Positions 13,044-52,089 of a DNA stretch of 64,000 nt are shown here, in pieces. A program made the translations under genes and the position numbers. Positions within the stretch are counted from its first letter, which is position 1, and every line of letters begins with the position of its first letter. The stretch lies in NCBI RefSeq assembly GCF_003590795.1, contig NZ_QYUL01000006.1:62001-126000 (forward strand), read 5' to 3'. The DNA is from Azospirillum cavernae. Lineage in GTDB: Bacteria > Pseudomonadota > Alphaproteobacteria > Azospirillales > Azospirillaceae. Below the pieces are notes generated by a model. It did not search any database. It was not told the origin of the DNA and worked only from the letters and a program-made list of their open reading frames with translations.

Positions 13044-13718
13044 GTGATCACCATTGCCCTGGCCAGCAACAAGGGCGGTTGCGCCAAAACCACGATGGCC
13101 TGCGCCTTGGCGACGGATCTGGCGCTTGATGGCTTGCGCGCCAGCATCCTTGATTGCGACCCCAACCAACACGCCGCCGCTTTCGGACGTCGGGCCGACC
13201 TTCCAGGCTTTTCAATCGTTCCCAATGTCGGTGAGGAGAGCGTCATTGGAGAGATTCGCAACGCCCGCAGCGGCTGCGATTTCCTGATCCTTGACCTGCC
13301 CGGCGTCGCCTCGCGCTTGACGATCCTGGGGATCGGCAAAGCGGCGTTCGTCATCGTGCCGTGCCAGCAATCCGCCCCCGACCTGCGCGACGCGCTGCGC
13401 ACCAACCACCAGATCGACGAGACCGGCGACATCGGCAACCGGGTCATCGGTCGGGCCATGCTGTGGACGCGGGTTCCCTCAGGCTTTGAAAGCCGGGTTG
13501 CCCGACAGATCCGCAGCGACGGCGAAACCCGCATGCCGACTTTTTCCAGCAGTCTGATGGAGCGAACCGCCTACAAAGAAATGCTGCTGACCGGCGTTCC
13601 TCCTCGCGTGTCGGATCCTGACGGCGCGGCGGCGGCCAACATCCAGGCGATCAAATCCGAACTTTTGAGGCGGCTGGCCGAACTGGACGCGGCCGTCCGC
13701 ACGGAGGCGCTCGCATGA
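13044..13718 (+). CDS. parA: ParA-family partition ATPase (short, type Ib-like)
   Basis: This is a Walker-type ATPase that segregates the replicon by binding nucleoid DNA. The deviant Walker A reads NKGGCAKTT at residues 9-17, with the signature lysine Lys10 and Ala14 where Gly is canonical. The A' motif is ILDCDPNQ and Walker B is LILDLPG. Starting at the GTG at 13044, which has GGAG about 10 nt upstream, the protein is 224 aa with no N-terminal helix-turn-helix, as in type Ib ParA. An in-frame ATG at 12855 would add 63 residues unlike any ParA, so it is not used. The gene overlaps the next by ATGA. Confidence 0.85.
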   Translation: MITIALASNKGGCAKTTMACALATDLALDGLRASILDCDPNQHAAAFGRRADLPGFSIVPNVGEESVIGEIRNARSGCDFLILDLPGVASRLTILGIGKAAFVIVPCQQSAPDLRDALRTNHQIDETGDIGNRVIGRAMLWTRVPSGFESRVARQIRSDGETRMPTFSSSLMERTAYKEMLLTGVPPRVSDPDGAAAANIQAIKSELLRRLAELDAAVRTEALA

Positions 13719-18120: not shown

Positions 18121-19101
18121 TCAGGGGGCCGCGTAAATCTGGTTCACGAAGGGATCATGCCCGCACTCCGCCCGGCTGAGAATGGGCTGTCGGGGGCCGT
18201 GCGGCGTGCGGTTGACGTTGTATTGCGCCGACAGCAGCAGACGGCGGCCCCGGCGCGGCAAGGCCCCCTTGTGGACGCCGTAGGTGTCGCCCAAAAACCA
18301 ACTTCCCGCCGGGCCGGTCATCGCCACCGTGTCGTGTGCGCCGAAGGCGGCCTCGACCTCGGCGTCGGTCAGGGCGCGGCCGGTGGAGAGTTGGCGGCTG
18401 CGGTGGCTGCCCTTGACGAAGACATGTGGGCCGCTCTCCTCCCCCACATCGGTCAAATAGAAGAAAATCTTGAAGCCGCGCAGGCTGTCGAGGTCGCGGT
18501 GGTGGCGCTGGGTTCCCTTGGCGGCTTCGCGCGCGCCAAAGGTCTCGCCGCCGTAGGACCACCAGCAGCCGATGTTGTCGAGCAGCGGCTTGCAGCCCAG
18601 ATACAGCTCCGCCGTTTCCAGAACGCGCGGGTCGTTGAACAGGTCCATCACACGGGGCGCCCGCAGGATCTGCTCGATGCTGTGATAGCCCATGTTGGAG
18701 TCCGGGCTGGGCGGCGAGTCGGGCCGGAACCAGCCCAGATGCGGGCGGAACGAGTCGATGCAGGGGGTTTCCTCGAAATACCCGCGCAGATCGGCGACGA
18801 TTCCGGGGTCGATGGGCGGCAGGAGCGGGGTGATGCCGTCGCGCTCCAGCGTTCGGCGCCAGTCGCGAGCGGTCAGGGAGGGGTGAAAATCCGGCGTGCG
18901 GGGCCGTCCCCAGGCGATCATCGCGGCCATTCGGTCGCGCAGGTCGGGGTCGGTGACGATGGGCAGGATGTCGTAAATGGCGTAACGCCCGTCTTGCCGG
19001 ATCTTGCGCAGATACTGACCGGGGGAGGCGATGCGGGTCCGCGCCTTGGCCCGGAAGGCGTCCAGCAGGCTGATGGGGGACAGTGCGGTCAGGACGGTCA
19101 T
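18121..19101 (-). CDS. phytanoyl-CoA dioxygenase (PhyH) family protein
   Basis: This is a putative Fe(II)/2-oxoglutarate oxygenase of about 326 aa. The iron-binding HxD lies in QRHHRDLDSLRGFKIFFY, followed by the PhyH block LTDVGEESGPHVFVKGSHRS. A distal His sits in GDTYGVHKGALPRRGRRLL. Similar enzymes hydroxylate lipids or small natural products. It is paralogous in its core to the PhyH half of the gene at 38.9 kb (LTDVDETSGPHVYIKGTHR). The ATG at 19101 is preferred to 19185. It is divergent from the BNR-repeat gene with a 133-bp intergenic space. Confidence 0.82.
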   Translation of the reverse strand: MTVLTALSPISLLDAFRAKARTRIASPGQYLRKIRQDGRYAIYDILPIVTDPDLRDRMAAMIAWGRPRTPDFHPSLTARDWRRTLERDGITPLLPPIDPGIVADLRGYFEETPCIDSFRPHLGWFRPDSPPSPDSNMGYHSIEQILRAPRVMDLFNDPRVLETAELYLGCKPLLDNIGCWWSYGGETFGAREAAKGTQRHHRDLDSLRGFKIFFYLTDVGEESGPHVFVKGSHRSRQLSTGRALTDAEVEAAFGAHDTVAMTGPAGSWFLGDTYGVHKGALPRRGRRLLLSAQYNVNRTPHGPRQPILSRAECGHDPFVNQIYAAP

Positions 19102-19234: not shown

Positions 19235-20359
19235 GTGACGGATCGGATCGAGCATCGGGTTCTGTATCGGGACGCGCGATTCTACGCCTCCTTCCCGTCG
19301 GTGGCGACGCGGGCGGACGGAAGCAGCCTGCTCGCCTTCCGGCGGGCGCGCGATCATCGTTGGCTGTTGGGGAGCGGCGTCGACCATGTCGATCATCTCG
19401 ATTCCCGGTCGCAAACCGTCCTTCTGACTCTGGACCATGACGGAATGCCGGTGGGCGAGCCGGTCGGGTTGCCGCCCGATCCGCAGGCCGCCGACCAGGA
19501 CGCCAGCCTGCTGGTTTTGCGCGACGGGCGCATCCTGCTGGCCGGTTTCTGCTGGTACCCGGTTCCGGCGGCGGTTGGCGTGGCCCTGGGCGCGGCGGGA
19601 ATCGGTTTGACCAGCAGCCCGCAAAAGACCGGCGACCTTTACCTCTTCTGGGGCGGCTACACCCGCCACAGCGACGACGGCGGGCGAAGCTGGTCGCCGC
19701 ACGCCTTTCTGCCCGCTTTGCCCGATCATCCCGACATCCTGCCCGGCCAGCGGCCCTTCCATGGCGGCGCCGTGCGCGGGCGCGCGGTGGAGACGGCGGA
19801 TGGAACCATCCTGCTGACCGGCTACACCCATCACCCGACCGGGGGCGCTTACGCCAGCCATCTGTTCGCCTCGACCGACCGGGGGGAGAGTTGGGAGCGC
19901 CGCGCGGTCATCGCCCATGATCCAGAGGGCAAGGCGGGTTTTTGCGAGACGGCGTTGTATCTGGACGGGCGCGGCGTGTTGACCGCCTTCCACCGCACCA
20001 CCGGGCTGGACGACCATCTGGCGACCTCGCGCTCCGACGATCAGGGCCACAGTTGGCAGCCGTGGCGGCGGCACGCGGTGATCGGTCATCCCTATGACCC
20101 TTGCCCGTTGCCCGATGGGCGGTTGCTGCTGTGCGGCGGCTACCGCCACAAGCCCTACGGCCTGCGCGCCCGCGTCTATGACCCGCTGACCCAATCCCCC
20201 GACGACGCGCCGGAGATCCTTTTGCGCGACGACGGGCCATCGCCGGATCTGGGCTATCCCTGGGCGACGGTCCTGCCCGATGGGCGGGCGCTGGTCTGCG
20301 CCTACATCGCCAACGCCGACGGACGGCGCGGGATCGAGGCGAGCCTGTTTCGAGCGTGA
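19235..20359 (+). CDS. BNR/Asp-box repeat sialidase-like protein
   Basis: This 374-aa protein is a predicted six-bladed beta-propeller of the exo-sialidase superfamily. Three Asp boxes (SxDxGxxW) are visible: SDDGGRSWSPH, STDRGESWERR and SDDQGHSWQPW. An N-terminal FYASFPSVATRADGSSLLAF could hold the first arginine-bearing blade. The GTG at 19235 is chosen because GGGAGG sits 8 nt upstream. The open frame begins earlier (19031), but that part overlaps the divergent PhyH gene. No signal peptide is seen, so it may act in the cytoplasm. Whether it cleaves a nonulosonic acid made elsewhere in the window is speculative. Confidence 0.75.
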   Translation: MTDRIEHRVLYRDARFYASFPSVATRADGSSLLAFRRARDHRWLLGSGVDHVDHLDSRSQTVLLTLDHDGMPVGEPVGLPPDPQAADQDASLLVLRDGRILLAGFCWYPVPAAVGVALGAAGIGLTSSPQKTGDLYLFWGGYTRHSDDGGRSWSPHAFLPALPDHPDILPGQRPFHGGAVRGRAVETADGTILLTGYTHHPTGGAYASHLFASTDRGESWERRAVIAHDPEGKAGFCETALYLDGRGVLTAFHRTTGLDDHLATSRSDDQGHSWQPWRRHAVIGHPYDPCPLPDGRLLLCGGYRHKPYGLRARVYDPLTQSPDDAPEILLRDDGPSPDLGYPWATVLPDGRALVCAYIANADGRRGIEASLFRA

Positions 20360-21596: not shown

Positions 21597-22160
21597 TCAG
21601 CGCCACTCCCGCCCGTCCATGTCGGTGTAGACGCCGAAGCGGTTGCGGGTGGCGCGCCAATCGTCGGCCAGCATTTCGAAGACGTGCAGGTCGATTTCGC
21701 GGCCGTCCTTCACCACCTGTCGGGCGAGCACGCCGACCGGGCGGTAGCCGATCATCGGTTGGCCTTTCAGCAGGCGCGGGCTGTTGGTCCCCAGAATGTG
21801 GTTGACCACCTTGCGCAGCCCCAGCGTGAAGAAGACATGGTTCAGCATGTAGGCGAAGTTCAGCGGCGCCGCCCCGACCCGTCCGGCTTTTTCGCCCATC
21901 AGCACGCCGATGGTGGCGATCTTCCAGGCCGGTTCGGTGATGGTGATGGACACATGGCCGGACGGCGTTCCATCCACGCAGAGGACGCGGTGAACATAGT
22001 CCGTCCGCTCGGCGCAGCGGCGCAGCCACGCCTTTTGCCGCTCGACGTCATACGGCACCTCCGACAGCATTTGATCGGCGATGTCGGGCCGGGTGCGCCA
22101 GTCGAGCAGGATCTGGGCGTGCTCTTCGGTCGGCGGGATGAAGGTGAGGACGCCGTTCAC
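21597..22160 (-). CDS. GNAT-family N-acetyltransferase, PseH-like
   Basis: The protein is 187 aa, beginning VNGVLTFIPPTEEHAQILLD. A GTG start at 22160 overlaps the stop of the upstream Rieske-type gene (GTGA). The acetyl-CoA binding part is suggested by IGVLMGEKAGRVGAAPLNFA and GLRKVVNHILGTNSPRLLKG. The layout (TEEHAQILLDWR..., then a conserved His/Asn-rich middle) is like GNATs that acylate amino sugars in pseudaminic or legionaminic acid pathways. A longer open frame reaches 22643, but its N-terminal 160 residues are antisense shadow of the neighbouring oxygenase. It is the last gene of a four-gene leftward operon. Confidence 0.72.
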   Translation of the reverse strand: MNGVLTFIPPTEEHAQILLDWRTRPDIADQMLSEVPYDVERQKAWLRRCAERTDYVHRVLCVDGTPSGHVSITITEPAWKIATIGVLMGEKAGRVGAAPLNFAYMLNHVFFTLGLRKVVNHILGTNSPRLLKGQPMIGYRPVGVLARQVVKDGREIDLHVFEMLADDWRATRNRFGVYTDMDGREWR

Positions 22161-23140
22161 GCCGCCGCTCCGGCGAGCTGGGCCAGCATCGCGGCGTGGA
22201 AGTCCAGGATGCGGCGTTCGCGGCGGCCATAGACGCCGTTGCCCAGGATGGCCGGACGGCCCTGCTGCACCGCTTCGCACACCGGGCGATCCTCGTCGAT
22301 CACGCCAATGGCCGACGTCACCAGATAGGCGGCGGTGGAGCGGTGAAAGGCGCGCTCGCGCGGGCTGTCCAATCGGGTCGTCGGCAGGAACAATTGCCAC
22401 CGCAGGACCGAGGAATCGGGGGCGACCGGATCGACCCGGTGCGGGATGACCACCGCCCCGTAAAAGCTCGCCAGATAGAAATTCGGGAAGATGAAGATGT
22501 GGCGGTAGAACGGCTCGTCGGCGAATTTGGCCAGCCGCAGCTTGGCGTCCAGCTTCGCCCACCAGCCCGCCGTGCCGTCGGCCAGAACCCAGCGGGAATC
22601 GCTGTTCGCCCCATGCCGCTCCGTCGCCAGATGGGTTTGCCAATCGGGATGCACCGCCGGGTGGATGGTGTCGGGGTGAACGGTGGAGCCGTGGAAGTCA
22701 TCCATGGTGTTTTCGACCAACGCCTTCCAGTTGGCTTGGAAGGGGATGCCGACCGGCGGTTCCGGGTTCACGCAATTGACCGACATGGCGGCCAGCCGCT
22801 CGGCGTAGGGGTGGAGATGCTCGGCCAGGGTGGGCGCCAGGTGTGAGTCCGCGCCCTCCGGGGCCACGCGGGCGAAGACCAGGGCGCCGCAGCGGTCGAC
22901 CTCCAGCGGGCGGACGCGCGCGCCGTCGTGGCGCTCGCCGCTCAGCCGTCCGTCGGCGTCGCGGCGGACGGCGAAGCGCAGCCCGGCCATCTCGGCGGAC
23001 AGCGCGCCGCTGGCGTCGAACACCCCCATGTAGAGCCAGCAGCGGCCAAAGACCCGCTCGCGCTCCTGCGCGAACGCCTCCTCCGTCCAGAAATGATGGT
23101 GCGGCAGGAAGGCGCCGGTTTCCGGGAAAAGCGCGGTCAT
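22157..23140 (-). CDS. Rieske-oxygenase catalytic domain lacking the Rieske [2Fe-2S] module
   Basis: This 327-aa protein starts like a Rieske oxygenase (EERVFGRCWLYMGVF would be the family form; here ERERVFGRCWLYMGVFDAS). The segment that should contain CxH and CxxH is replaced by a direct join, DADGRLSGERHDGARVRPLE to VDRCGALVFARV. The mononuclear iron site is intact in NTMDDFHGSTVHPDTIH (Asp147, His150, His155). It therefore has a catalytic iron but no electron-delivering cluster of its own. The next gene upstream encodes a Rieske domain without this iron site and overlaps it by ATGA, suggesting that the two polypeptides form one split enzyme. Confidence 0.8.
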   Translation of the reverse strand: MTALFPETGAFLPHHHFWTEEAFAQERERVFGRCWLYMGVFDASGALSAEMAGLRFAVRRDADGRLSGERHDGARVRPLEVDRCGALVFARVAPEGADSHLAPTLAEHLHPYAERLAAMSVNCVNPEPPVGIPFQANWKALVENTMDDFHGSTVHPDTIHPAVHPDWQTHLATERHGANSDSRWVLADGTAGWWAKLDAKLRLAKFADEPFYRHIFIFPNFYLASFYGAVVIPHRVDPVAPDSSVLRWQLFLPTTRLDSPRERAFHRSTAAYLVTSAIGVIDEDRPVCEAVQQGRPAILGNGVYGRRERRILDFHAAMLAQLAGAAA

Positions 23141-23763
23141 GCGGGCGTCTCCGCGTCAGCGTGGGCGGGATGGAAGGTCCAGGCGCGGGCGAAGCGGTCG
23201 GCGGCGCCGGGCGGCGGCAGGGCCTCCAGCCGCAGGGCCGCAGCCGCGACGACCGCGCGCAGGTTGGCGGTCTCGATCCGCTCCCCCGCCGGATCCAGGT
23301 CGATCAGCTCGCCGCGTCGGGTGAAGCGGTTCGACAGCGCGGCCAACCGGGCGAAGACGTCCGCGCCCATCTGCGCCTCCAGCCCTGGCCCTTCGACCGC
23401 CACCCGGATGAAGACCAAGCGTCCGCACATCGCCAACGAGGCGGGGTTCAGCGCCAACCGCCGCCGCCCTTCCGCGTCGAGCTGGAAGTCGGTCGGGTTG
23501 AAGGGCAACCCCACCGGCACGCCCGCCGCGTCAAAACTCCAACCATGATAGGGGCAGCGCAACGGGCCGCAGCCGCTCGCCGCGTCGTGGATCACCGCGA
23601 ATCGGTGGGTGCAGACGTTGCGGAAGGCGACCACCTCCCCCTTGATGTTCTGCGCCACCAGCGGGATCGCGCCGACCCGCGTCGTGACGAAGGCGTTCGG
23701 GTTGGCCAGATCGTCGGCGGCGCAGAGGAAGAACCAGCGGGTGTCGGGCGTGTCCTCGGCCAT
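23137..23763 (-). CDS. Rieske [2Fe-2S] domain protein lacking the catalytic iron domain
   Basis: This 208-aa protein has a full Rieske cluster site: Cys51/His53 in NVCTHRFAVIHD and Cys70/His73 in LRCPYHGWSF. It begins like an oxygenase alpha subunit (RWFFLCAADDLANPNAFVT). After LAMCGRLVFIRV the sequence becomes a short alanine-, arginine- and proline-rich tail with no DxxHx4H iron site. It is too long for a simple ferredoxin component (about 100 aa) and too short for an alpha subunit (about 350-450 aa). It overlaps the catalytic-only gene downstream by ATGA. It probably supplies electrons to that partner (inference). Confidence 0.8.
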   Translation of the reverse strand: MAEDTPDTRWFFLCAADDLANPNAFVTTRVGAIPLVAQNIKGEVVAFRNVCTHRFAVIHDAASGCGPLRCPYHGWSFDAAGVPVGLPFNPTDFQLDAEGRRRLALNPASLAMCGRLVFIRVAVEGPGLEAQMGADVFARLAALSNRFTRRGELIDLDPAGERIETANLRAVVAAAALRLEALPPPGAADRFARAWTFHPAHADAETPA

Positions 23764-23793: not shown

Positions 23794-24558
23794 TCAGGCG
23801 GTGCGCCCGCCATCCACGGTGACGATGGATCCCGTCATCCAGCGGCTGGTGTCGGCGAGCAGATAGGCCAGCATGTGGGCGATGTCGTCGGGATGGCCGA
23901 AGCCCAGCGGCTGGAGCTTGCGCAGATGCTCATACTGCTCCGCCGTCAGCTTCTGCTTGCCGCGTTCGATCAACTCGGTTTCGACGATGGAGGGGACGAC
24001 GCAATTCACCCGGATGCCGTCGCTCAGCAACTCCACCGCCAGCCCCTTGGTGGCGGCGATGACGCCGCCCTTGCTGGCGGCGTAGACGACGTTGCCGGGC
24101 GAGGCCGCCGTCGCGGCGGTCGAGGAGATCAGCGCCATCGCCGCCCGCTCGGCGTGGCAGCCCTTTTGCCGCAGCCCGCGCGCGAGCGCCAGAGCGCTGC
24201 CCAGATTGGCCCGCATCACCGAGTCGAAGAAATCGGCGGAGAAGATGCGGATTGGGCGCAGCGTCTGAATCCCGGCGCAATGGGCGATGCCGTCCAGCGG
24301 TCCGTGATCGGCGGCCAGTTGCTTCACCCACCCCGGCACCGCCTCCAGCTCCGACAGGTCAAAGGCGGCGACGGCGTGCCCGTCGCCTTCCAACTGGGCG
24401 GCGGTGTCGTTCAGCCGGTCGACGTCGCGCCCGTTCAGGATCACGCGCGCGCCCAGCCGTGACAGCATCACCGCCGTCGCCCGCCCGATTCCAGCCGACG
24501 CGCCCGTGACCAGCATGCGGCGGCCAGACAGATCCATGGGGTTGTAAAGGGCGGTCAT
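23794..24558 (-). CDS. short-chain dehydrogenase/reductase
   Basis: This is a classical SDR of 254 aa. The cofactor motif TGASAGIG is at residues 18-25. NCAG-like HCAG follows, the catalytic Ser lies in LISSTAA, and Tyr/Lys in NVVYAASKGG. The C-terminus ends TGSIVTVDGGRTA, as in FabG-type reductases. The ATG at 24558 is preferred; a longer frame from 24597 adds 13 residues. It is first of a leftward operon (SDR, Rieske-only, catalytic-only, GNAT) and lies 171 bp from the divergent KAS III gene. A role as 3-ketoacyl reductase acting on the KAS III product is plausible but unproven. Confidence 0.85.
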   Translation of the reverse strand: MTALYNPMDLSGRRMLVTGASAGIGRATAVMLSRLGARVILNGRDVDRLNDTAAQLEGDGHAVAAFDLSELEAVPGWVKQLAADHGPLDGIAHCAGIQTLRPIRIFSADFFDSVMRANLGSALALARGLRQKGCHAERAAMALISSTAATAASPGNVVYAASKGGVIAATKGLAVELLSDGIRVNCVVPSIVETELIERGKQKLTAEQYEHLRKLQPLGFGHPDDIAHMLAYLLADTSRWMTGSIVTVDGGRTA

Positions 24559-24729: not shown

Positions 24730-25824
24730 ATGAAAGCGGTCGTCGAAGGGGTGCGGATCGCGGGTTTGCGGGCGGTGGTGCCGTCGCAGCGCCATTCCTT
24801 CGTCGAGGATCCCGGCATCTTCACACCCGAAGAGGTTCGGAAGCTGGCCGCCACCATCGGCGTCCACGAACGCCGCGTCTTGGCCCCGCCCTATTGCGCG
24901 TCGGACCTGTGCGTCGCGGCGGCGGAAGGGCTGATGGCGCAACTCGATTGGGATCCGGCCAGCGTCGAGGTGCTGATCTTCGTGTCCCAGGACGCCGATT
25001 ACGTGCTGCCCGCCACCGCCTGCATCATGCAAAAGCGGCTGGGCCTGCCGACGAGCACGGCGGCCTTCGACGTGCCGTTGGGCTGCTCGGGCTATGTCTA
25101 TGGGCTGTGGATCGCGTCCCGCCTGCTGGGCGGTTCGACCGCACGGCGCGCCCTGGTGCTGTGCGGCGACAACGCCACCCGCCATTTGCACCCGGAAGAC
25201 CGGGCGACCCTGCCGCTGTTCGGCGACGCCGGGTCGGCCACCGCGCTGGAGGTTGATCCCGAGGCCACGCCCATTTCTGTGGTGATCGGCACCGACGGGG
25301 CGGGCGCGCCGCACATCTTCGTCAAGGCGGGCGGCAAGCGCCATTGCCTGATCCCGCCAGTGGCGTCGGCCAACCGCGCCATTGACCCGGACGCGGCGGC
25401 GGCGCTGGAGCGCGATTCGCGCCTGGCCCTGAACGGGGCGGAGGTTTTCTCCTTCACCCTGCGCGCCGTGCCGCCGCTGCTGCGCGAGACGATGGAGCAT
25501 GCTGGAACCGACATCGACGGCATCGACCGCTTCGTGTTGCACCAGGCTAATGCTTTCATGCTGGAGCATCTGCGCAAAAAGGTGAAGGCGCCAACAGACA
25601 AGTTCGTTATCGACATGCAGGGGTTTGGCAACACCAGCTCCGCGTCTATCCCGTTGGCGATTTGCCACAGCTTGGGCAGAGAGTTGGCGGAGCGGAGGGT
25701 TAAGACACTGATGGCAGGTTTTGGCGTTGGTTGGTCCTGGGGCGGCATGGTGGCGAATCTTGGGCCGATGCCAGAACCCCAGGTGGTAAATCTGCCGGAT
25801 GACTATCCGGTTTTGGTGGTATGA
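24730..25824 (+). CDS. 3-oxoacyl-ACP synthase III (KAS III)-like enzyme
   Basis: This 364-aa thiolase-fold enzyme has the full KAS III triad: Cys119 in VPLGCSGYVYG, His271 in FVLHQANAFM and Asn301 in GFGNTSSASIP. KAS III enzymes condense an acyl-CoA with malonyl-ACP. Relatives outside fatty acid synthesis make short acyl groups such as acetoacetyl for sugar decoration. It diverges from an SDR and a GNAT that could reduce and transfer such an acyl group (inference). A decayed duplicate lies at 36.3-37.4 kb. The start ATG is supported by AAGGACAGGAC just upstream and by conservation in the duplicate. Confidence 0.88.
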   Translation: MKAVVEGVRIAGLRAVVPSQRHSFVEDPGIFTPEEVRKLAATIGVHERRVLAPPYCASDLCVAAAEGLMAQLDWDPASVEVLIFVSQDADYVLPATACIMQKRLGLPTSTAAFDVPLGCSGYVYGLWIASRLLGGSTARRALVLCGDNATRHLHPEDRATLPLFGDAGSATALEVDPEATPISVVIGTDGAGAPHIFVKAGGKRHCLIPPVASANRAIDPDAAAALERDSRLALNGAEVFSFTLRAVPPLLRETMEHAGTDIDGIDRFVLHQANAFMLEHLRKKVKAPTDKFVIDMQGFGNTSSASIPLAICHSLGRELAERRVKTLMAGFGVGWSWGGMVANLGPMPEPQVVNLPDDYPVLVV

Positions 25825-26018: not shown

Positions 26019-26957
26019 TCAACGGTAAAGCTGGGCGAATTTCCGTTCTGGGATTGGTGGAGGCGACGGATGCATGAGCAATCCTTGTTCCTCAACTTCA
26101 ACTCTGGCATCAGGATAGACAGCAAGCGCCAGTTGGAGCGCCTCAATGAAGCGTTTCCGGAAATCACGCAAACGGCTGTAACCCGCGCCGAATTGTTCGA
26201 ACACGGCGGGCCAAGTGATCTGTGTGGTTCGAGACAGGCTGTGAAGCCGGTAGGCCAGCCAAATATAGATGTCGATGCTGGTGCTGTTGTTCTGGATATG
26301 GCGCAGAGCCGGTTCCCAGATTGGGACGGGATGAGCCTTTAGCTCGCGAAAGAAGGCTTCGGACAACAGAACGCGGTCTTCCCACAAACTGCCCTGATCG
26401 GAACCAGGATTGGCTGAAAAGTGAATGCCGCCTTTGACGATGGAGCCTTTTTCAAAGCCAATGCTGTGGGCGTCTTCCCAGGCGAAGGTTAGATTGCAGG
26501 CGGCAATGCGCGACGCCTGTTCGCGAATGTCACGATAGGTTTGGCCCCCGACCGACAAACCCATACGGTCGAGCCATTCGTGCATGCTGCGTCCCAACTC
26601 GACTTCACGGCTGTCGGTTTGGATGGCGCGGGTTTGCAGATAGAGCAGAATCATGCGGGCGCGGCTGCCATAAGGAACGCCGTAAAGTTTGAATCCTCCG
26701 TTGCGAACGGGCAGTCGTCCCGGCTCGATCAGCAAACGAATCTTATGTCCTCGGCGTTCCCAAGGCTGGTCATCCGGAAGACGGCGATGTGGAAGCGCGG
26801 TTAGCGCAAAACCGGAATAGGTGATGCCAAGCTCTTGCCGCTCCTCTTCGAGGACGGCTGCCGCGACGTCAACTAGGGAACGTCTCTCCGGATCTGGTTG
26901 GAGAGCTTTCGCCTGGTCTCGTCCAAGCTGGGTAATCAGGTGATGTATCTGTCCCAT
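26019..26957 (-). CDS. repA: plasmid replication initiator RepA (RepA_C family)
   Basis: The protein starts MGQIHHLITQLGRDQ and is 312 aa. Its centre carries the RepA_C family block YGVPYGSRARMILLYLQT, then SREVELGRSMHEWLDRMG and TYRDIREQASRIAACNLTFA. The C-terminus contains SIDIYIWLAYRLHSL and FRKRFIEALQLALAVYPDA, winged-helix-like segments for DNA binding. RepA_C initiators are known from plasmids of Alpha- and Gammaproteobacteria. The ATG at 26957 has AAGG about 10 nt upstream; a TTG at 27020 is an alternative and would lie within 3 bp of the first iteron. Iterons upstream are likely both replication origin and autoregulatory operator. Confidence 0.88.
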   Translation of the reverse strand: MGQIHHLITQLGRDQAKALQPDPERRSLVDVAAAVLEEERQELGITYSGFALTALPHRRLPDDQPWERRGHKIRLLIEPGRLPVRNGGFKLYGVPYGSRARMILLYLQTRAIQTDSREVELGRSMHEWLDRMGLSVGGQTYRDIREQASRIAACNLTFAWEDAHSIGFEKGSIVKGGIHFSANPGSDQGSLWEDRVLLSEAFFRELKAHPVPIWEPALRHIQNNSTSIDIYIWLAYRLHSLSRTTQITWPAVFEQFGAGYSRLRDFRKRFIEALQLALAVYPDARVEVEEQGLLMHPSPPPIPERKFAQLYR

Positions 26958-27666
26958 AGCGGGCTGACCTTGGCAGGACTTTATGGAGATCGGTATATCA
27001 CGAGGTTTCCGTGTCAGCAATTTGGAGTCTTGTCGCGCAAACTATTTGTTTGATTATTTGTTTCTATTAATAGTTTGCGCGACAAGACTCCAGTAGAGAA
27101 TCGCGAGTCGCGCGACAAGACTCCAGAATTGTCGCGACAAGACTCCAGTGGATAGTCGATTCGGGCTGTGGATTTATCGTTGGGTCTGGGGTTGTGGTGA
27201 CGAAGATCCAGGGTTTGGGACTGAGTGTATGGCGGAATCATTGATGTTTCCTGGTATTCCGAGTCGCGTTCCTGTTCAGACGGGCGCGAATCGGGTGGCG
27301 TTTGGAGTTCTGTCGCGCTTTGCTCCGCTCGACGCTTCTGCAAGCCGGTCATGGCCAGCCATCCGATCTTTCTTGAGGAGTGGGAATGGAGGGGGGGGCG
27401 CGACAAGAGTCCAAACTCAATGGGAGCAGGATAGGCGGTTTGGGCGGGTTGCGGCGACCGTGTTTGGAGTCTTGTCTCTCTCGTGGTTCTGTCGGCTTCA
27501 TGTCGGGCGTTTCCAGCCGGTTCGGGGTTGGAGGGGCGCTTGTGGATCGGAAAGCGGTCGGTCTATAAACGGTCCGCCCCGGTTTGCCGGTCTGGTCTTC
27601 AGGCCATCAAACCAGGCCATCAAACCGAAGGGCGCGCGTCGTGCGCCAAGCAATAGGACGGCAGCA
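26958..27666. other. iteron-type replication origin region
   Basis: This roughly 0.7-kb gene-free stretch separates repA from manC. Perfect 14-bp iterons (GCGACAAGACTCCA) lie at 27023-27036 (reverse), 27079-27092, 27112-27125 and 27134-27147. Their start-to-start spacing of 33 and 22 bp puts the last three on one helix face. Degenerate copies are at 27303-27316, 27400-27413 and 27465-27478. An AT-rich segment lies at 27047-27068, and TGTGGATTT at 27167-27175 matches 7 of 9 bases of a DnaA box. A G8 run is at 27391-27398. This is the expected anatomy of an iteron plasmid oriV. Confidence 0.75.
27023..27092. repeat. perfect 24-bp inverted repeat with AT-rich centre, built from two facing iterons
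   Basis: Bases 27023-27046 are the exact reverse complement of 27069-27092. The 22-nt spacer has only four G/C bases. Each arm ends in a full iteron. The left arm begins 66 bp upstream of the repA ATG, the position of an operator for RepA dimers or of the duplex-unwinding element. Confidence 0.85.
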
Positions 27667-42679: not shown

Positions 42680-43438
42680 TCACTTGCGAACCGCGATTCC
42701 AGCTTTATCGAGGAAATTTTTGGCGCTACGGATGCTGGTTTCCGTAAAGTGATAGATGTTGCTGGTGCAAACTCCCGACGCTCCCGCCTTGTTGAAGGCG
42801 TCGACGAAATGCTGCCAACTCCCGGCGCCGCCGCTGACCAGAACCGGAACCGAAACCGCTTCCGTCACGCTGCGGCACAGATCGAGATCATAGCCGCTTA
42901 ACGAGCCATCACGCTCGATCGAAGTGATGAGAATCTCTCCAGCTCCAGCCGTCTGGGCTTGACGGGCCAGTTTGGCTGGCTCCAGTCCCGTTGGCCGTGT
43001 GCCGAAATGGGTGAAAGCCTCGTACCGCCTGCCGTCGGCCGTTTGGCGAGCATCAATCGAACAAACCACACACTGGGCGCCGTACAAAGATGCGATTTCG
43101 CCCAACAGGGCCGGTCGCTCGACAGTCATGCTGTTGACGACCACCTTGTCAGCGCCCAGGTCAATCATCCGTTTCACATCGTCCAGACTGCGGATGCCTC
43201 CCCCGGCGGCCAGCGGAACAAAGCAGCGGCTGGCGAAATCCTTTACGACGCGAAAAAAGTTTTCCCTTGTCCCTTGCCCAGGGCGCGTCACATCAAGAAC
43301 GACGATTTCATCCACCGACCAAGCATCGACAAAATTGTGCGTGTAACGATAATCCGGTTCGAACAGCTTAGTACGGAACAAAACCCCATCGTTGAAAGTC
43401 AGAACAGTTACTAGACGTTTACGCAGCATCGGCGTCAT
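42680..43438 (-). CDS. hisF: HisF-like subunit of a glycan amidotransferase system, catalytic Asp11 missing
   Basis: This 252-aa TIM barrel starts MTPMLRKRLVTVLTFNDGVL. True HisF has the catalytic Asp in PCLDV near residue 11; here that position is Thr (VLTFN). The second acid is kept (SIDARQ). The phosphate-binding GGGIRSLDDV and VSGGAGSWQHF loops are present. HisF homologues that accompany WbpG/PseA-type sugar amidotransferases also lack this Asp. They are thought to anchor HisH and channel ammonia rather than make imidazole. It overlaps hisH by ATGA. It is not expected to serve histidine synthesis. Confidence 0.87.
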   Translation of the reverse strand: MTPMLRKRLVTVLTFNDGVLFRTKLFEPDYRYTHNFVDAWSVDEIVVLDVTRPGQGTRENFFRVVKDFASRCFVPLAAGGGIRSLDDVKRMIDLGADKVVVNSMTVERPALLGEIASLYGAQCVVCSIDARQTADGRRYEAFTHFGTRPTGLEPAKLARQAQTAGAGEILITSIERDGSLSGYDLDLCRSVTEAVSVPVLVSGGAGSWQHFVDAFNKAGASGVCTSNIYHFTETSIRSAKNFLDKAGIAVRK

Positions 43439-44052
43439 CCTCTCTCGACAAAGTTCTTCAGAACGGTCAAGCCGTGCTGCTGACTCTTTTCCGGGTGAAA
43501 TTGAACGCCGTAAACCATGCCAGCCTGGAAGGACGCCATGAAACGACTGCCATAATCACAGGTGGCCACGGCCAAATCCGCCATACAAGGCTGCATGGCA
43601 TAGCTGTGGACATAATAGAACAGGGCATCATCCGGCACATCGACGAAAAGCGGACAATCGCGCGTGCGGTGCAGTTCGTTCCAACCAACATGCGGAACGC
43701 GCAGATCCGATTGATCCGGAGCCATCTCCAGGCGCCGGACCACCGCATCGACCCAGCCCAGCCCTTCGTGTCGGCCGAACTCATCGCTTTCCCGGCACAT
43801 CATCTGGGCGCCGACACAGATTCCGAGAATTGGCACCTTGTCTTTTACCTGTTCCAAAAAGCGATCCAGGCCAGTTTGTCTAAGATTACGGATGCAATCT
43901 CCGAACGCGCCGACGCCAGGCAGGATGATCTTCTCCGCAGATGAAAGGACCGACGGATCGCTGCTGAGCACAGGTTCAACCCCAAGGTGCCGCAGCGCCC
44001 CGGTGACCGAGGTGAGGTTTCCCGAACCGTAATCGACCACGGCGACACGCAT
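43435..44052 (-). CDS. hisH: HisH-like glutamine amidotransferase subunit
   Basis: This 205-aa class I glutaminase hydrolyses glutamine to deliver ammonia. The catalytic triad is complete: Cys79 in LGICVGAQMM and the His-Pro-Glu in VQFHPEKSQ. The N-terminal VVDYGSGNLTSVTGAL and ILPGVGAFGDCI loops are conserved. It sits between WbpG-like and HisF-like genes, the standard trio for ammonia-dependent conversion of an N-acetyl sugar to an acetamidino or related derivative. It starts 34 bp after the WbpG-like stop. Confidence 0.9.
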   Translation of the reverse strand: MRVAVVDYGSGNLTSVTGALRHLGVEPVLSSDPSVLSSAEKIILPGVGAFGDCIRNLRQTGLDRFLEQVKDKVPILGICVGAQMMCRESDEFGRHEGLGWVDAVVRRLEMAPDQSDLRVPHVGWNELHRTRDCPLFVDVPDDALFYYVHSYAMQPCMADLAVATCDYGSRFMASFQAGMVYGVQFHPEKSQQHGLTVLKNFVERG

Positions 44053-44086
44053 ATCGGTCTCTTTCCTTGTTCTGGAGCGATGAACG

Positions 44087-45196
44087 TCAAACCGGCGGGT
44101 AGCGCAGTTTCCACTGGTTGCCTTCGAAGTCCCAAAGTTCAGGATTGCGGTGGCGGTCGACCAGTTCGGCGAATTCGATCTCGTTCAGGCCGAGATAGTC
44201 GAGATTGTCGGCGAAGAAGGTGGATGGGAACTCGGCATCATAGCGGCGCGCCACTTCCAACCCCTCCTCTCGCGTCATCCTGCCACGGTAGATATGGCGG
44301 GAAGCATCACGCGAGGCACGGCCAAAACCAAATTTCACATACTGCATGTAATAGTAGAGATTATCGATTTTGTCATCAAGGCTATCGAAATCGATGAAGG
44401 TTCCGTCAACCCGCCCACCCGGCTGAGTTCTGAAATCTATGTTTGATTTGACGTATTCATAATTCGCTGCAATATCCCAGGGGAAGAAATAAGCGAAATA
44501 AATGGCTTTGATGCCGACCCGCGCCACGTCATCGGCTTCCGGATAAAGGTACGGAGCCAGATCATGTTCTTTCACCACGTCGTCCACCCAATTCGCTGGA
44601 TGGTCGCCAACCTGATGCTCCAAAACCTCGACGATGTCGCGGATTTTGCGATGCTCCTCGCTGAGCACGCGCCCGCCATATTCACTCTCGCCATGCTCCG
44701 CGTAAATCACCAGGGGAATGTTGTAACGAACGGCAACCTGGACAGGGACTGCGTTGATCCCGGCATCCCAATGGATCTTGGGGTTTCCACGCTCAATGAA
44801 GAAGCGTCGGGCAAGATGACGCGACACCTTCTGATTGGGCCGCACCATTAGATGGTCGAACCCAGCCTGAAGAAGCGCTTCTCTGTTGTGAACGCCAACG
44901 TCGTTCGGCAGAAGAGGAGAAAAAGTCACGAGAAGAGGGTTGAGGCCGAACTCAAACTTCAACCGATGGGCGATGAAGCTGGAATCCTTCCCGCCCGACC
45001 AGGGAACGATGCAGTCATAGGAACCGTCACGGGACCGGTGGCGCTCCACCAGATCAAGAAACTCCATCCGCCGCGCGTGCCAATCGATGTGCCGCTTGCT
45101 CTCGGCCGTGTGGCAAGCGTTGCATACACCGTTCTCATCAAAGACGATGCGAGGACGAGTGTCGGGCATCAGACATGTCTTGCAATAGCGAACCAT
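44087..45196 (-). CDS. wbpG: N-acetyl sugar amidotransferase (WbpG/PseA family)
   Basis: This 369-aa PP-loop ATPase begins MVRYCKTCLMPDTRP. The Zn-type cysteines CKTC and CNACH are followed by the ATP pyrophosphatase loop CIVPWSGGKDSSFIAHRL. The family block AEHGESEYGGRVL is present, as is YFFPWDIAANYEYVK. With HisH/HisF-like partners, characterised members build the acetamidino group of Man(2NAc3NAmA) O-antigen sugars (WbpG) or of pseudaminic acid (PseA). Which sugar is modified here is unknown. The ATG at 45196 is preferred over 45310, which would overlap the asnB gene. Confidence 0.9.
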   Translation of the reverse strand: MVRYCKTCLMPDTRPRIVFDENGVCNACHTAESKRHIDWHARRMEFLDLVERHRSRDGSYDCIVPWSGGKDSSFIAHRLKFEFGLNPLLVTFSPLLPNDVGVHNREALLQAGFDHLMVRPNQKVSRHLARRFFIERGNPKIHWDAGINAVPVQVAVRYNIPLVIYAEHGESEYGGRVLSEEHRKIRDIVEVLEHQVGDHPANWVDDVVKEHDLAPYLYPEADDVARVGIKAIYFAYFFPWDIAANYEYVKSNIDFRTQPGGRVDGTFIDFDSLDDKIDNLYYYMQYVKFGFGRASRDASRHIYRGRMTREEGLEVARRYDAEFPSTFFADNLDYLGLNEIEFAELVDRHRNPELWDFEGNQWKLRYPPV

Positions 45197-45221
45197 GGAG
45201 CAACCTTCCCAAATAGGCCCG

Positions 45222-47057
45222 TCAGGAGCCGAATTCCTCAAGAAACAGTTTGGTCGAAACAATGCTGAACAGGAATTTGCTTTCACTGTCGGAAAGATTT
45301 TCCTTGTCAATCATAGTGGCGACCTTGTCGCGGCGCAGGAGGTCGTAAACCAAACCGTCGCCGAGAAGCCAGTCTCGCGTGCCTGGATCAGTCCTGTCAA
45401 AGAAGGAAAAAATATCCGCGTTGAAGCCGATCTTCCGGCGATTGTCGAGCAGTTCATCAGGAACCAGCCCCCGCACCGCCTCGCGCAAGACCGCCTTGGT
45501 CAGGCCGTCTCGGATCAGCAGCGGGGTGGGGATCGACAAGGAGAACTCGAACAACGCGCGATCTAGAAACGGTGAGCGGTTCTCGATTGAATAATACATG
45601 GCGTTCAAATCGTCCTCATGCAGGATCTGCGGGACGACTTCATGGAACAACTCGTTGAGCATGCGGTTGCGCAACGGATCGGCGGTGTAGACCGTCTCGA
45701 CAAACCCCTCCGACCATGGCTCTTGCAGAAACGCTTCGTGTTCGCCAACATCGGGGTACAGATGATCGCGGCGGTGCGGCTGCTCCAGGAAGACTCTGGG
45801 ATTTTGCAGCACCGGATTGCGGACGATCGGCTTGATATGGGTCGCCCAGTTCGCCTCAGCCTCAACAAGCCGCACCGGATCATCACGCAGAGCTGACAAG
45901 TAAAAGGCATGGTGATCGTAATAGCCGGTGAACAATTCGTCCGCTGCTGTTCCACTGACGGCGATCCGGCAACCATGCTCGGCCATGCTCTGATGCAGCA
46001 TCGACTGCGCGACATAGCTGATCGTGTAGACAGGGGCATCGTGTTGGCGAACGAGTTCGCGCATCCGGGGAATGAAGTCGGCCGTTCGCACAGGTACGGC
46101 TGTGTGATCGATGTCGAGATGACGAAGCATGCACGCGACCATCGGGGTCTCGTTGTAACGTTCGTCGTCATTGGTGATCGTGAAGCCCTTCACGCCATAT
46201 CCGAAGACACGGCTGGCGATACCGATCAGAGCGTTGGAATCAATGCCACCGCTCATGCAAAAGGCGAGAGGAACGTCGGCGCGCAGCCTAAGATTCATTG
46301 AAGCAATCAGACGCTCTCGCACCCCTGCTACAGCGGTTGGAAAATCCATGGACAAATCTGGCCGGTGGCGGATGTTCCAGTAACGGAAGCTCCGTTCCCC
46401 GCCATTGGGCGACAGAACGAGCGCCTGCCCCGCCGGCAACTCGCTCACGCCCTCAAAGAAGCTGTCCGCCGTTTTGTAGAGGGATCGATATCCATTCACC
46501 AGATAACGGTTCACTTGGTGGAAATTGATGGAAAAGGATTTCCCGGCTAGAGCCGCAAGGAACTTGACCTCTGAGGCAAAATACAGACCGCTCTCATCCT
46601 TGTAGAGATAGAGCGGCTTCTCGCCGAAGCGGTCACGAGACAGGGCCAGCGTGCCGCTCTGCTCGTCATACAGCGCGAATGCCCACATGCCTTCGCAACG
46701 GTCAAGCGCCGTCTCCAACCCCCAGGCGCCAATCGCCCGAACGAGCACCTCCGTATCGGAACGGGTACGGCAAGGAACGCCCTCACGCTTCAGGGCTTCT
46801 CCAACCTCAATGTAATTGTAAAGCTCGCCATTGAAAACGATGTGCCGTCCATCCGACTCGAAAGGCTGGTTGGCCTCGGACGCAAGATCAATGATCGACA
46901 GCCGCGAATGCAGAAGCACCAGCGTCCGACCGTCAGGAACGCCCCACCGCCGGTGATCTCGGTGATCCGGGCCACGGCGCCCCATCTTTTCAAGACAAGC
47001 CTCGACACGCGCCGGGGTCGGCCCAGACCAACCGATATAGCCCGCAATCCCACACAT
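45222..47057 (-). CDS. asnB: glutamine-hydrolysing asparagine synthase-like amidotransferase
   Basis: This 611-aa protein has the Ntn glutaminase domain, with nucleophile Cys2 (MCGIAGYIGW) and RRGPDHR and FNGELYNY motifs. A synthetase domain carries the PP-loop CMSGGIDSNALIGIA. In O-antigen clusters AsnB relatives amidate the carboxyl of uronic or nonulosonic acids, using glutamine. Its place between a deacetylase and the WbpG/HisH/HisF trio favours that role over asparagine supply (inference). The C-terminal region contains SIENRSPFLDRALFEFSLSI and VPDELLDNRRKIGFNAD, as usual. Confidence 0.87.
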   Translation of the reverse strand: MCGIAGYIGWSGPTPARVEACLEKMGRRGPDHRDHRRWGVPDGRTLVLLHSRLSIIDLASEANQPFESDGRHIVFNGELYNYIEVGEALKREGVPCRTRSDTEVLVRAIGAWGLETALDRCEGMWAFALYDEQSGTLALSRDRFGEKPLYLYKDESGLYFASEVKFLAALAGKSFSINFHQVNRYLVNGYRSLYKTADSFFEGVSELPAGQALVLSPNGGERSFRYWNIRHRPDLSMDFPTAVAGVRERLIASMNLRLRADVPLAFCMSGGIDSNALIGIASRVFGYGVKGFTITNDDERYNETPMVACMLRHLDIDHTAVPVRTADFIPRMRELVRQHDAPVYTISYVAQSMLHQSMAEHGCRIAVSGTAADELFTGYYDHHAFYLSALRDDPVRLVEAEANWATHIKPIVRNPVLQNPRVFLEQPHRRDHLYPDVGEHEAFLQEPWSEGFVETVYTADPLRNRMLNELFHEVVPQILHEDDLNAMYYSIENRSPFLDRALFEFSLSIPTPLLIRDGLTKAVLREAVRGLVPDELLDNRRKIGFNADIFSFFDRTDPGTRDWLLGDGLVYDLLRRDKVATMIDKENLSDSESKFLFSIVSTKLFLEEFGS

Positions 47058-47081
47058 GGCGCCCGTGCCCCTTGCTGTCGA

Positions 47082-48005
47082 TCAACCGACCATGATTCGT
47101 TTCAGATGGAAGAGTCCTGTTTCCGGAGTGTTGTCTCCATCCTCGGCCGTCGGACAACAGACGACGCCATGACCACGCAGTGCTTCGATCACCGCATCGG
47201 AATAGCAATGCGCCAATCCTTCCGGATAGGAATAATGCCGACAAGACAGCCCGGCTCGGTCGCGCATCAGGCGAACGCTGGTCTCCAGTTCAACGGCCAA
47301 TGCATCCGGCTCGAGAAACGAGAGGATGTCGTGCCGATGGGAATGGCCGCCCACAATGAACAGCGGATTGTCGGCCAACATGCGCACTTGGTCCCAGTTC
47401 ATCTTCTGATCCAGAGCATTGTCGCCGCTCCAGGTCTCGGGCAAATCGCATTGCGCCTGAATGTCGCTGGCCAGTGCCTGAGGATCAATGGAGCGGTCTT
47501 TTTTGGCAAAACGGCGAATTTCGGTCAGAAGCGCGATGCGCTCCGCCCGCGTTGCGAAGGAAATGGCCCCAGTTCGCCAGGGCAGGCACAAGGAGCCGAT
47601 CAACGTCCGTTCCAGCGCCCACTCGATCCGGTCGATCCAGGACATGGCGTTGTCCTCGATGAAGCCCGTGGTGATGTAGAAAGTCGCCGGAATTCCCAAC
47701 CTGTCTAATTCCGGAGCCGCCACTGTCAGGTTGTTCTCGAAGCCATCGTCGAACGTTATGGCGAAGGCGCGCGACGGATACGGCTCACCAGTTTGTTGAT
47801 GATGAATGACGTCGTCCATCGACAGTGGAGTGCCGCTGCGTTTCAGATCCTCCAGAATGGCGCGGAACTCGCTTTTCAAGCGATGCTTGCCCGTGTAGTT
47901 GCGCACGTCCCACGGCGATTCCGAGACGACGCCATGGAACAGGAAGATGCAGAGCGTTCCATCGCCAAGCCGCTGCGACCATTGGCCGGTCTTGTTCGTA
48001 TTCAT
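47082..48005 (-). CDS. polysaccharide deacetylase (NodB homology, CE4) family
   Basis: This protein of about 307 aa has the CE4 metal and catalytic motifs. FAITFDDGFENNL holds the Asp pair, and GGHSHRHDILS holds the HxxxH zinc ligands. RHYSYPEGLAHCYSDAVIEA corresponds to motif 3 (family R.PYG). It would remove an acetyl group from an N-acetylated sugar. The ATG at 48005 overlaps the upstream formyltransferase stop by ATGA, which suggests a deacetylate-then-formylate pair. No signal peptide is visible, so it may act on a cytosolic or lipid-linked intermediate. Confidence 0.85.
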   Translation of the reverse strand: MNTNKTGQWSQRLGDGTLCIFLFHGVVSESPWDVRNYTGKHRLKSEFRAILEDLKRSGTPLSMDDVIHHQQTGEPYPSRAFAITFDDGFENNLTVAAPELDRLGIPATFYITTGFIEDNAMSWIDRIEWALERTLIGSLCLPWRTGAISFATRAERIALLTEIRRFAKKDRSIDPQALASDIQAQCDLPETWSGDNALDQKMNWDQVRMLADNPLFIVGGHSHRHDILSFLEPDALAVELETSVRLMRDRAGLSCRHYSYPEGLAHCYSDAVIEALRGHGVVCCPTAEDGDNTPETGLFHLKRIMVG

Positions 48006-48715
48006 CGCATGGCACCTGAAAACATGGCGAAGCGACGCACGCAAACCTGCTTCAGCGCCGTCGGCATGAAGGAATAATAACGCCCCCGTCTGGCCTGTGG
48101 TTGTGCCGGAATGCCTCGTCCGCCAACCCAGCCATCAAGAGCGTCTTCGACCAGTTGCAAGCAAACCCGCGTGTTGGCCGCCCGCAGTTGGGCCAGCGTC
48201 ATGCCGTTCGTCAGCAAGATGGGGCGGCGCCCAACGATCGCACCGGTGTCGAGTTCGGGCGCCAACCAATGCAGGGTGGTGCTCAACTGATCGAACGCGC
48301 CATGCCAAACTGCCCAGAGATGAGTGTCCAGGCCACGATATTCTTCCGGGTCGCCACCATGCAAGTTCAGGATGTTGCCGCCGCAGGCGTCGATCACAGC
48401 TTGTGACAGCTTGCCCGTGCCGAACACCACGGCTAGGTCGGGGCGGGTCTGTCGCAACGCCGCCACCGCTGACTCCGCGTTCAGTGATGGAAAGGCCATA
48501 GTATCGCCATGATCGCTCAGGCGCTCTCCTCCCTTGGCGAACCATAAGGCGCGCTCGTGCTCGTCACGCTCCGCTTCAAAAGGATGGGCGGTTTCGTAGG
48601 CAGGGCGCAAGGTTTCTGTTTCCACAAAAACCCGCGCCACGGGATGGCGCCTCGACAGTTCGCGCAGGAACCAAGAGTGATGGAGGGTTTCCGTGGTCAG
48701 GAGAACCAAATTCAA
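48002..48715 (-). CDS. short formyltransferase-fold enzyme
   Basis: At 237 aa it has the N10-formyl-THF transferase catalytic domain only. Asn117 and His119 lie in NILNLHGGDPEEYRGLDTHL, and Asp156 is in APELDTGAIV. The C-terminal domain found in the 41.7-kb enzyme is absent. It may formylate an amino sugar exposed by the neighbouring deacetylase. It overlaps neuB upstream and the deacetylase downstream, each by ATGA, in a tightly packed operon. Confidence 0.85.
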   Translation of the reverse strand: MNLVLLTTETLHHSWFLRELSRRHPVARVFVETETLRPAYETAHPFEAERDEHERALWFAKGGERLSDHGDTMAFPSLNAESAVAALRQTRPDLAVVFGTGKLSQAVIDACGGNILNLHGGDPEEYRGLDTHLWAVWHGAFDQLSTTLHWLAPELDTGAIVGRRPILLTNGMTLAQLRAANTRVCLQLVEDALDGWVGGRGIPAQPQARRGRYYSFMPTALKQVCVRRFAMFSGAMR

Positions 48716-49764
48716 CGAGGTGCGTCCTGTGCGCCCTCATCCAGATCGGCCTTCAGAATTGGCGAACCGGCGGGCAGATTGCGAGTCAGGCGCCGTCCAA
48801 GAACGAGGGTTTCCGCCCCCGGCGGCAAGCCTGTGCCAGGCCGGACCCAGGTGAGATCCGACATCGTCAACACCGCCCCCGCCGACAGATCGTGGTCGGC
48901 GACGATCGAACGTCGATTAGCGATCGCCCCTGCGTCTTCACAGCTGCGGCGCTCTTTGACGGAAGAGCCGAGCATGACCGACGCTGTGCGGATGCGATCC
49001 GCCATCTCCCTCAGCGCCTCGGGATTCGCCGACAATTGGTGGTCCCGGAAGCTCGAGTAATTGTTGTCGATGGTGAAGTGTTTCTCAATGATCCGCGCGC
49101 CGAGCCCCACAGCCAGCACGGCCGCGTCGATGCCGATCGTGTGGTCAGAATATCCGACGGTCGCATCCGGGAATGCCGCTGCCAGGGTGGAGATGGTGGC
49201 CAGATTGGCCTCTTCCGGCGGGGTTGGGTAAGCGCTGACACAGTGAAGGATCGCGAGACCGGGATCGCCCTGTTCCGCCTCCGCCCAGACTCGACGGACC
49301 AAGGCGTCGGCGTAACGGATCTGTTGCATGTCGGCGATGCCGGTCGAGACCAGCATCGGCTTGCCACGCCGCGCCACCGCTTCGATCAAGGGATAGAACG
49401 TGTTGTCGCCAGACGCGATCTTATAGGCGGACACCAGCGGTTCGAGCACAGCGACGCTGCCGAGGTCGAAAGGCGTGGACAGGAAGATCAATCCGGCGTC
49501 CCGAGCCTGCTGCGCCAGTTTGGCGAACTGCTCCCCCGACAGCTCAAAACGCTTCAGTCGGGCGAATCGTTCGCTTTCAGAAGGACTGACGTAATGCTCC
49601 GTCCGGAAGGTCTGGAATTTGACCGCTCCGGCGCCAGCCTCCGCCGCCAATCCGACCAGATCTTGGGCAAGCGCGAAACTGCCCTCATGGTTGTTGCCGA
49701 CTTCGGCGATCAGCAGGACGTCGTTCTGGGAATCCCAGGTCTCGATCAGCATGGGGCGACTCAC
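48712..49764 (-). CDS. neuB: NeuB-family nonulosonic acid synthase (sialic/legionaminic/pseudaminic type)
   Basis: This 350-aa enzyme condenses an N-acyl hexosamine-type sugar with phosphoenolpyruvate to form a nine-carbon keto acid. Family motifs are LIAEVGNNHEGS near the N-terminus, VKFQTFRTEHYV, FLSTPFD, VGYSDHTIGIDA and IIEKHFTID. A C-terminal SAF domain is present (RRSIVADHDLSAGAVLTMSD). The subtype cannot be fixed by eye; SpsE-like members act with SpsF-like cytidylyltransferases such as the one at 53.1 kb. It overlaps the upstream SDR by ATGA. Confidence 0.88.
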   Translation of the reverse strand: MSRPMLIETWDSQNDVLLIAEVGNNHEGSFALAQDLVGLAAEAGAGAVKFQTFRTEHYVSPSESERFARLKRFELSGEQFAKLAQQARDAGLIFLSTPFDLGSVAVLEPLVSAYKIASGDNTFYPLIEAVARRGKPMLVSTGIADMQQIRYADALVRRVWAEAEQGDPGLAILHCVSAYPTPPEEANLATISTLAAAFPDATVGYSDHTIGIDAAVLAVGLGARIIEKHFTIDNNYSSFRDHQLSANPEALREMADRIRTASVMLGSSVKERRSCEDAGAIANRRSIVADHDLSAGAVLTMSDLTWVRPGTGLPPGAETLVLGRRLTRNLPAGSPILKADLDEGAQDAPR

Positions 49765-51973: not shown

Positions 51974-52089
51974 GCCCGATTCAATGCCTTAGTCCGAAAA
52001 AATTCACAGGAAGCTAGCATAAGGCCATATCATTCGCCAGAGGCGAAATCCATGACTTCTATCTTCACATGGCATGTCCTTCACAGAGT

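Follow-up and report, generated by a model that had tools for sequence, protein, structure and literature searches.

In ordinary Rieske oxygenases, both metal sites are present in every subunit, and the Rieske cluster of a given subunit donates electrons, through a His-Asp/Glu bridge, to the mononuclear iron of the adjacent one. Because each subunit has both sites, transfer across subunits has been argued from structures and mixed mutants. In the two-chain chlorophyllide a oxygenase (CAO) of Micromonas pusilla, each chain bears one metal site. CntA is an example of the cross-subunit mechanism (PMC7948474). CAO is described as a two-chain Rieske oxygenase in PMC9615114, citing Kunugi 2013, with a heterodimer or a trimer of dimers suggested; VanB has served as its surrogate reductase (PMC9615114). 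In the caffeine N7-demethylase NdmC/NdmD/NdmE, it is the reductase NdmD, rather than the catalytic chain NdmC, that carries the Rieske domain (PMC4408171). A first-pass annotation of the locus analyzed here held that its divided architecture does not belong to a described system, but two-chain CAO (PMC9615114) and NdmCDE (PMC4408171) are precedents and the statement was too strong.

We analyzed a 64,000-nucleotide stretch of a contig of Azospirillum cavernae (hereafter, the window), in which the two halves of a Rieske oxygenase appear to be encoded by adjacent genes, here called SMALL and LARGE. The operon is ordered SDR-SMALL-LARGE-PseH-like acetyltransferase, and the two open reading frames (ORFs) of the pair were recovered at the same coordinates as in the first-pass annotation, on the minus strand and with the ATGA overlap (table 1). 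RefSeq labels SMALL "Rieske 2Fe-2S domain-containing protein" and LARGE "RHO alpha subunit C-terminal catalytic domain-containing protein" and makes no link between them. Single-chain alpha subunits have both motifs in one polypeptide; here there is one motif per chain, except for a fusion in strain G446.

Table 1. Coordinates of the gene pair, of flanking genes, and of linkage variants in other strains (window positions unless a contig or locus is given)
Feature	Position	Strand	Basis or remark
SMALL, Rieske-only chain, 208 aa	23137..23763	minus	ORF, PF00355, ligand alignment
LARGE, catalytic-only chain, 327 aa	22157..23140	minus	ORF, PF00848, ligand alignment
SMALL/LARGE stop/start overlap ATGA, 4 bp	23137..23140	minus	Translational coupling
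SDR-family oxidoreductase, gene 1 of conserved operon	23794..24558	minus	ORF start possibly 24597
GNAT acetyltransferase, overlapping end of LARGE	21597..22160	minus	PseH-like syntenic homologue in g2
RO_full (P0003), complete Rieske oxygenase paralogue, 404 aa	20363..21577	plus	Rieske motif and ExxHx4H
3-oxoacyl-ACP synthase III (KASIII/FabH-like), divergent	24730..25824	plus	With operon in relatives
G446 fusion ORF	C1:569479-570786 (L048, L072, L106:14447-15769)		
Junction insertions	L005:4662-5979 (L005/G348); L103:4587-5925 (G428)		90.5% identical to each other

SMALL has the features of a Rieske chain. As first read, its 208 residues include the complete set of four Rieske ligands but lack an iron-site motif, and its sole Pfam match is to PF00355 Rieske (E = 1.3e-14). 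The ligands C51, H53, C70, and H73 are invariant across 18 aligned homologues and lie in a motif of the alpha-subunit type, CTHR...CPYHGW (general form CxHR...CxYHGW). In Nitrospirillum, SMALL is 131–139 aa long and ends directly after the Rieske domain; in Azospirillum, it has a long form with ∼70 aa C-terminal to that domain. Of this extension, the first ∼29 residues can be aligned with the complete paralogue (hhalign probability 84.5, E = 7e-6). We considered the Azospirillum C-terminus as a gutted catalytic domain and rejected this, as only those ∼29 residues align to the paralogue. Matches to the predicted fold of the whole chain cover 255–316 columns, with TM scores of 0.46–0.61 by query, and are suggestive only.

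The short form in Nitrospirillum is near the size of Rieske ferredoxins, and the ferredoxin CarAc (1vck) is among the PDB sequence matches of SMALL (E = 1.2e-8). SMALL could thus be a diffusible, ferredoxin-like carrier that docks transiently on LARGE without forming a stable heteromer. We consider this unlikely because, besides the type of its motif, every NCBIfam model matched by SMALL is an oxygenase model, its best match among PDB sequences is an alpha subunit (8.3e-10), and the 50 best matches of its predicted fold are all oxygenase chains; by all three comparisons SMALL is closer to alpha subunits than to Rieske ferredoxins. A carrier would also leave LARGE as an oxygenase lacking its own Rieske cluster, which is not how known ferredoxin-fed systems are built, and in strain G446 the two chains are fused.

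LARGE has the complementary set of ligands. The 327-aa chain has DxxHx4H and no cluster cysteines, in agreement with the first-pass annotation, and only a Pfam catalytic domain scores above cutoff (PF00848 Ring_hydroxyl_A, E = 2.3e-19; a VanA_C match is below cutoff). The [D/E]xxHx4H motif is within the PF00848 domain, and residues D147, H150, and H155, as well as E283/D284, are invariant across 18 aligned LARGE chains; E283/D284 is a plausible candidate for the third iron ligand. A CxH...CxxH motif was found in none of the separate LARGE chains examined. The Rieske module is missing from LARGE, as had been noted, with ∼12 residues in place of the ∼65-residue cluster region of the full-length paralogue P0003; the N-terminal helix is retained, as are some of the strands that once belonged to the Rieske domain, without the cluster region. 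The predicted fold of LARGE matches those of complete alpha subunits such as stachydrine demethylase, CntA, and TPADO, and its best PDB profile match is CntA (1.4e-9). AlphaFold models of LARGE and SMALL have pLDDT values of 69 and 74, respectively, falling below 50 in residues 151–163 beside the iron site of LARGE and in the cluster loops of SMALL. Moderate confidence that is lowest at metal sites may be expected, since metals are absent from the models and only 18 sequences were available. That LARGE has no cluster of its own could also mean that it has lost the oxygenase role and is now a binding or structural protein built on the catalytic-domain fold. This is very unlikely, given that the iron ligands and the residues around them (ANWKxxxENTxDDFHG..xH) hardly vary among the three genera and that a Rieske partner is retained in every genome with LARGE.

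As the first-pass annotation proposed, we looked for the same adjacent pair in other genomes; among the 82 searched from the family, 30 have it, and these belong to three genera: Azospirillum (15), Nitrospirillum (7; genus g285, assigned by its sequences), and a third genus, g2 (8). A first sample had comprised 18 named Azospirillum and Nitrospirillum loci. A separate search with SMALL returned the identical 30 genomes as that with LARGE, and neither chain is alone in any of the 82. The pair was not found outside the family in wider class and phylum samples, in which the best five candidates per genome were scored. Strain G417 carries the locus twice, on two contigs (C1:40953-41918 and C2:10183-11148).

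At first sight, overlapping ORFs with complementary halves resemble a broken gene, and a frameshift is what the first-pass annotation had set against its own reading. It is nevertheless exceedingly improbable that the locus is a Rieske oxygenase gene undergoing decay, one broken by a frameshift, or a product of misassembly. The split is shared by the 30 genomes, and LARGE homologues in the 18-row alignment are 49–88% identical. SMALL and LARGE total 535 aa versus about 365–404 aa for a complete oxygenase here, and the post-Rieske segment is present in duplicate, one copy per chain: CGRLVFIRVAVEGPGL / CGALVFARVAPEG...PTL (CG.LVF.RVA). As each chain has its own post-Rieske segment and the total is this large, the locus consists of two genes of alpha-subunit type. 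Both are under purifying selection within Azospirillum, with dN/dS of 0.25–0.46 for SMALL and 0.12–0.38 for LARGE by NG86, a rough method.

Linkage of the two genes is maintained despite variation at their junction. SMALL is immediately upstream of LARGE wherever the contig permits (a contig break interrupts the pair of strain G453), and the two overlap or abut in nearly all relatives. The overlap is 4 bp in Azospirillum, 1 bp in most Nitrospirillum, and 7 bp in g2. In two Azospirillum strains, a TnpB-type insertion of ∼1.3 kb is located exactly at the junction, and both ORFs are intact. The end of the insert seems to provide a ribosome-binding-like GGAG before the LARGE start. In locus L005, the TnpB frame is open. 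The longest frame in L103 lies on the opposite strand, so TnpB may have decayed there.

Strain G446, of the Nitrospirillum genus, has SMALL and LARGE as a single in-frame ORF of about 440–450 aa with both motifs. In trees, the Rieske part of this protein sits among the SMALL chains of Nitrospirillum and the catalytic part beside LARGE of Nitrospirillum, so it appears to be a secondary re-fusion. Domain order in the fusion is permuted: the Rieske module comes first and the N-terminal helix of LARGE second, the opposite of the usual order. A natural fusion of otherwise separate chains, a Rosetta-stone case, is strong evidence that SMALL and LARGE act together.

The coupled, adjacent pair in three genera, co-occurrence in 30 of 30 genomes, the one fusion, and the complementary ligands support the heteromeric oxygenase that was first proposed, and we regard such an enzyme as very likely. 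SMALL has the His73 (YHGW) side of the electron bridge and LARGE the Asp147 side, which argues for a heteromer with electron transfer at the interface. An obligate heteromer of this kind, probably a trimer of heterodimers, is likely as well. We infer cofactor loading, complex formation, electron path, stoichiometry, and substrate as follows. SMALL would carry the Rieske [2Fe-2S] cluster, and LARGE would carry the mononuclear iron, bound by H150, H155, and probably D284, with D147 as the bridging residue. Electrons from a reductase would enter the cluster of SMALL and then cross the chain interface to the iron of LARGE, as they do between neighboring alpha subunits of ordinary alpha3 Rieske oxygenases. 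LARGE would activate O2 on a substrate derived from the neighboring SDR, KASIII, and PseH-like acetyltransferase genes; the substrate would most likely be an N-acyl group or the sugar of a pseudaminic-acid-type nonulosonate, destined for surface polysaccharide or flagellin. No dedicated reductase gene was recognized beside the pair.

The complete paralogue, RO_full, has both motifs, with the bridging Asp replaced by Glu (EVYHADTVH). The best curated model for this protein is GbcA, though GbcA scores here are 20–109 against a cutoff of 670 bits. A complete Rieske oxygenase is present in all 30 genomes that have the pair; it adjoins or is near the pair in Azospirillum and g2, and the Rieske domain of SMALL tends to group with RO_full of Azospirillum (77/86, unstarred). 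These patterns raise the possibility of a three-chain enzyme, in which LARGE, SMALL, or both assemble with RO_full into mixed rings of full and half subunits. We think this improbable, as RO_full occurs without the pair in Azospirillum strains G410, G411, and G427, is ∼26 kb from it in Nitrospirillum strain G443, and has no part in the natural fusion, which unites SMALL and LARGE with each other. Strain G446 also holds a full-length-type Rieske match elsewhere (C1:544318-544737). Near RO_full in the window are genes for a BNR-repeat (sialidase-like) protein (19235-20359) and a weakly PhyH-like protein (below cutoff; 18121-19101), both of which are conserved in Azospirillum relatives.

Phylogenetic patterns are consistent with one origin of the split. 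In trees, all SMALL chains cluster (87/93), as do all LARGE chains (90/96), although these groupings are not fully starred. Strain G355, from another family, has two complete oxygenases in tandem between an SDR gene and a GNAT acetyltransferase gene (L069 / L109:7389-9586). Descent from this tandem pair, which fills the same operon slot, was considered and set aside: in the Rieske tree its two oxygenases group as sisters (89/98), and grouping of SMALL with the upstream copy is disfavored (p-AU = 0.032). Constraining LARGE with the downstream copy was not rejected (p-AU = 0.194). The tandem could serve as an analogue, or as a model of an intermediate, rather than as a proven ancestor. We tentatively suggest a fuller scenario, which as a whole is less likely than not. 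Two complete chains, the products of a duplication, would have lost complementary parts and become an obligate heteromer, later re-fused in one lineage in the order Rieske, N-terminal helix, catalytic domain. This enzyme, possibly with its complete sister oxygenase, would oxidize an acyl group or the sugar of a pseudaminic-acid-type nonulosonate.

In relatives, genes flanking the pair suggest a link to nonulosonate metabolism. The order SDR-SMALL-LARGE-acetyltransferase is retained in all three genera, and KASIII is near the operon in Azospirillum and Nitrospirillum. In g2, the operon is contiguous with PseB and PseC, PseI is in the same locus, and the syntenic acetyltransferase homologue scores 58.7 bits against the PseH model TIGR03585, below its cutoff of 93.1. 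PseG adjoins KASIII in Nitrospirillum. Near the tandem oxygenases of G355 are KASIII, PseG, PseI, and a cytidylyltransferase-like gene, as well as ACP-like and FlgL-like genes recognized by eye only. In the genome of the window itself, the PseI that scores above cutoff is encoded on a different contig, and ∼26 kb separates the pair from a NeuB-family gene. Strain G410 cleanly lacks the pair and has SDR and acetyltransferase genes adjacent and RO_full retained (L066:5537-5575). As some Azospirillum have these three genes without the pair, the step it encodes appears to be optional. Such an optional step fits these neighbors as oxidative tailoring of a Pse-type sugar, or of an acyl group that KASIII and SDR would make and the acetyltransferase would attach.

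Other features of the window were also identified. Positions 42680-53819 encode a second nonulosonate or amidated-sugar cluster, which includes the NeuB-family synthase (48712-49764), a PseC-like aminotransferase, a dehydratase, and a formyltransferase-like gene, and also cytidylyltransferase-like, WbuX, and WbuZ-like genes. A RepA_C plasmid replication protein (26019-27020) suggests a plasmid or chromid, and a ParA-like ORF (13044-13718) was recognized by eye.

Several aspects of the SMALL-LARGE pair are undescribed within the part of the literature that we searched, namely a bacterial pair of stand-alone Rieske and catalytic chains in a glycan operon, its re-fusion, and versions separated by an insertion. 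That partial search found no further split Rieske oxygenases and no paper joining "Rieske" and "pseudaminic acid". If the fuller scenario is true, Rieske chemistry would, within the same literature, be new to the biosynthesis of bacterial nonulosonates. If the genomic context is read correctly, it points to an unrecognized oxidative tailoring step in pseudaminic-acid-type glycans of Azospirillum, which is plant-associated. Having each metal site on a chain of its own makes it possible to load, mutate, or mix the sites separately, and natural points of comparison exist in the fusion and in the tandem full-length oxygenases.

The closest solved and curated relatives here are alpha3 monooxygenases of the CntA and GbcA type, but these have both metal sites on one chain whereas SMALL and LARGE have one each. 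Rieske ferredoxins of the CarAc type are stand-alone Rieske domains with a size near that of Nitrospirillum SMALL, yet they supply oxygenases that have their own Rieske cluster, and SMALL better fits alpha-subunit models. NdmC is like LARGE in being a catalytic-iron chain with the cluster on another polypeptide (PMC4408171). However, the Rieske domain of NdmD is fused to a flavin/NADH reductase, whereas SMALL has PF00355 only and no reductase domain. NdmCDE also requires the GST-like NdmE (PMC4408171), and no GST-like gene is among the identified neighbors of the pair (SDR, GNAT, KASIII, and RO_full). CAO, compared here by its described architecture, is likewise a Rieske oxygenase in two polypeptides. 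CAO is algal and acts in chlorophyll b synthesis, whereas SMALL-LARGE is bacterial, is encoded in a sugar/glycan operon, and is re-fused in one genome; given host and operon context, chlorophyllide a oxygenase activity is implausible. In SMALL-LARGE, the ligands of the two metal sites are on separate chains and these chains co-occur; both would be required for activity if the architecture is of the CAO type.
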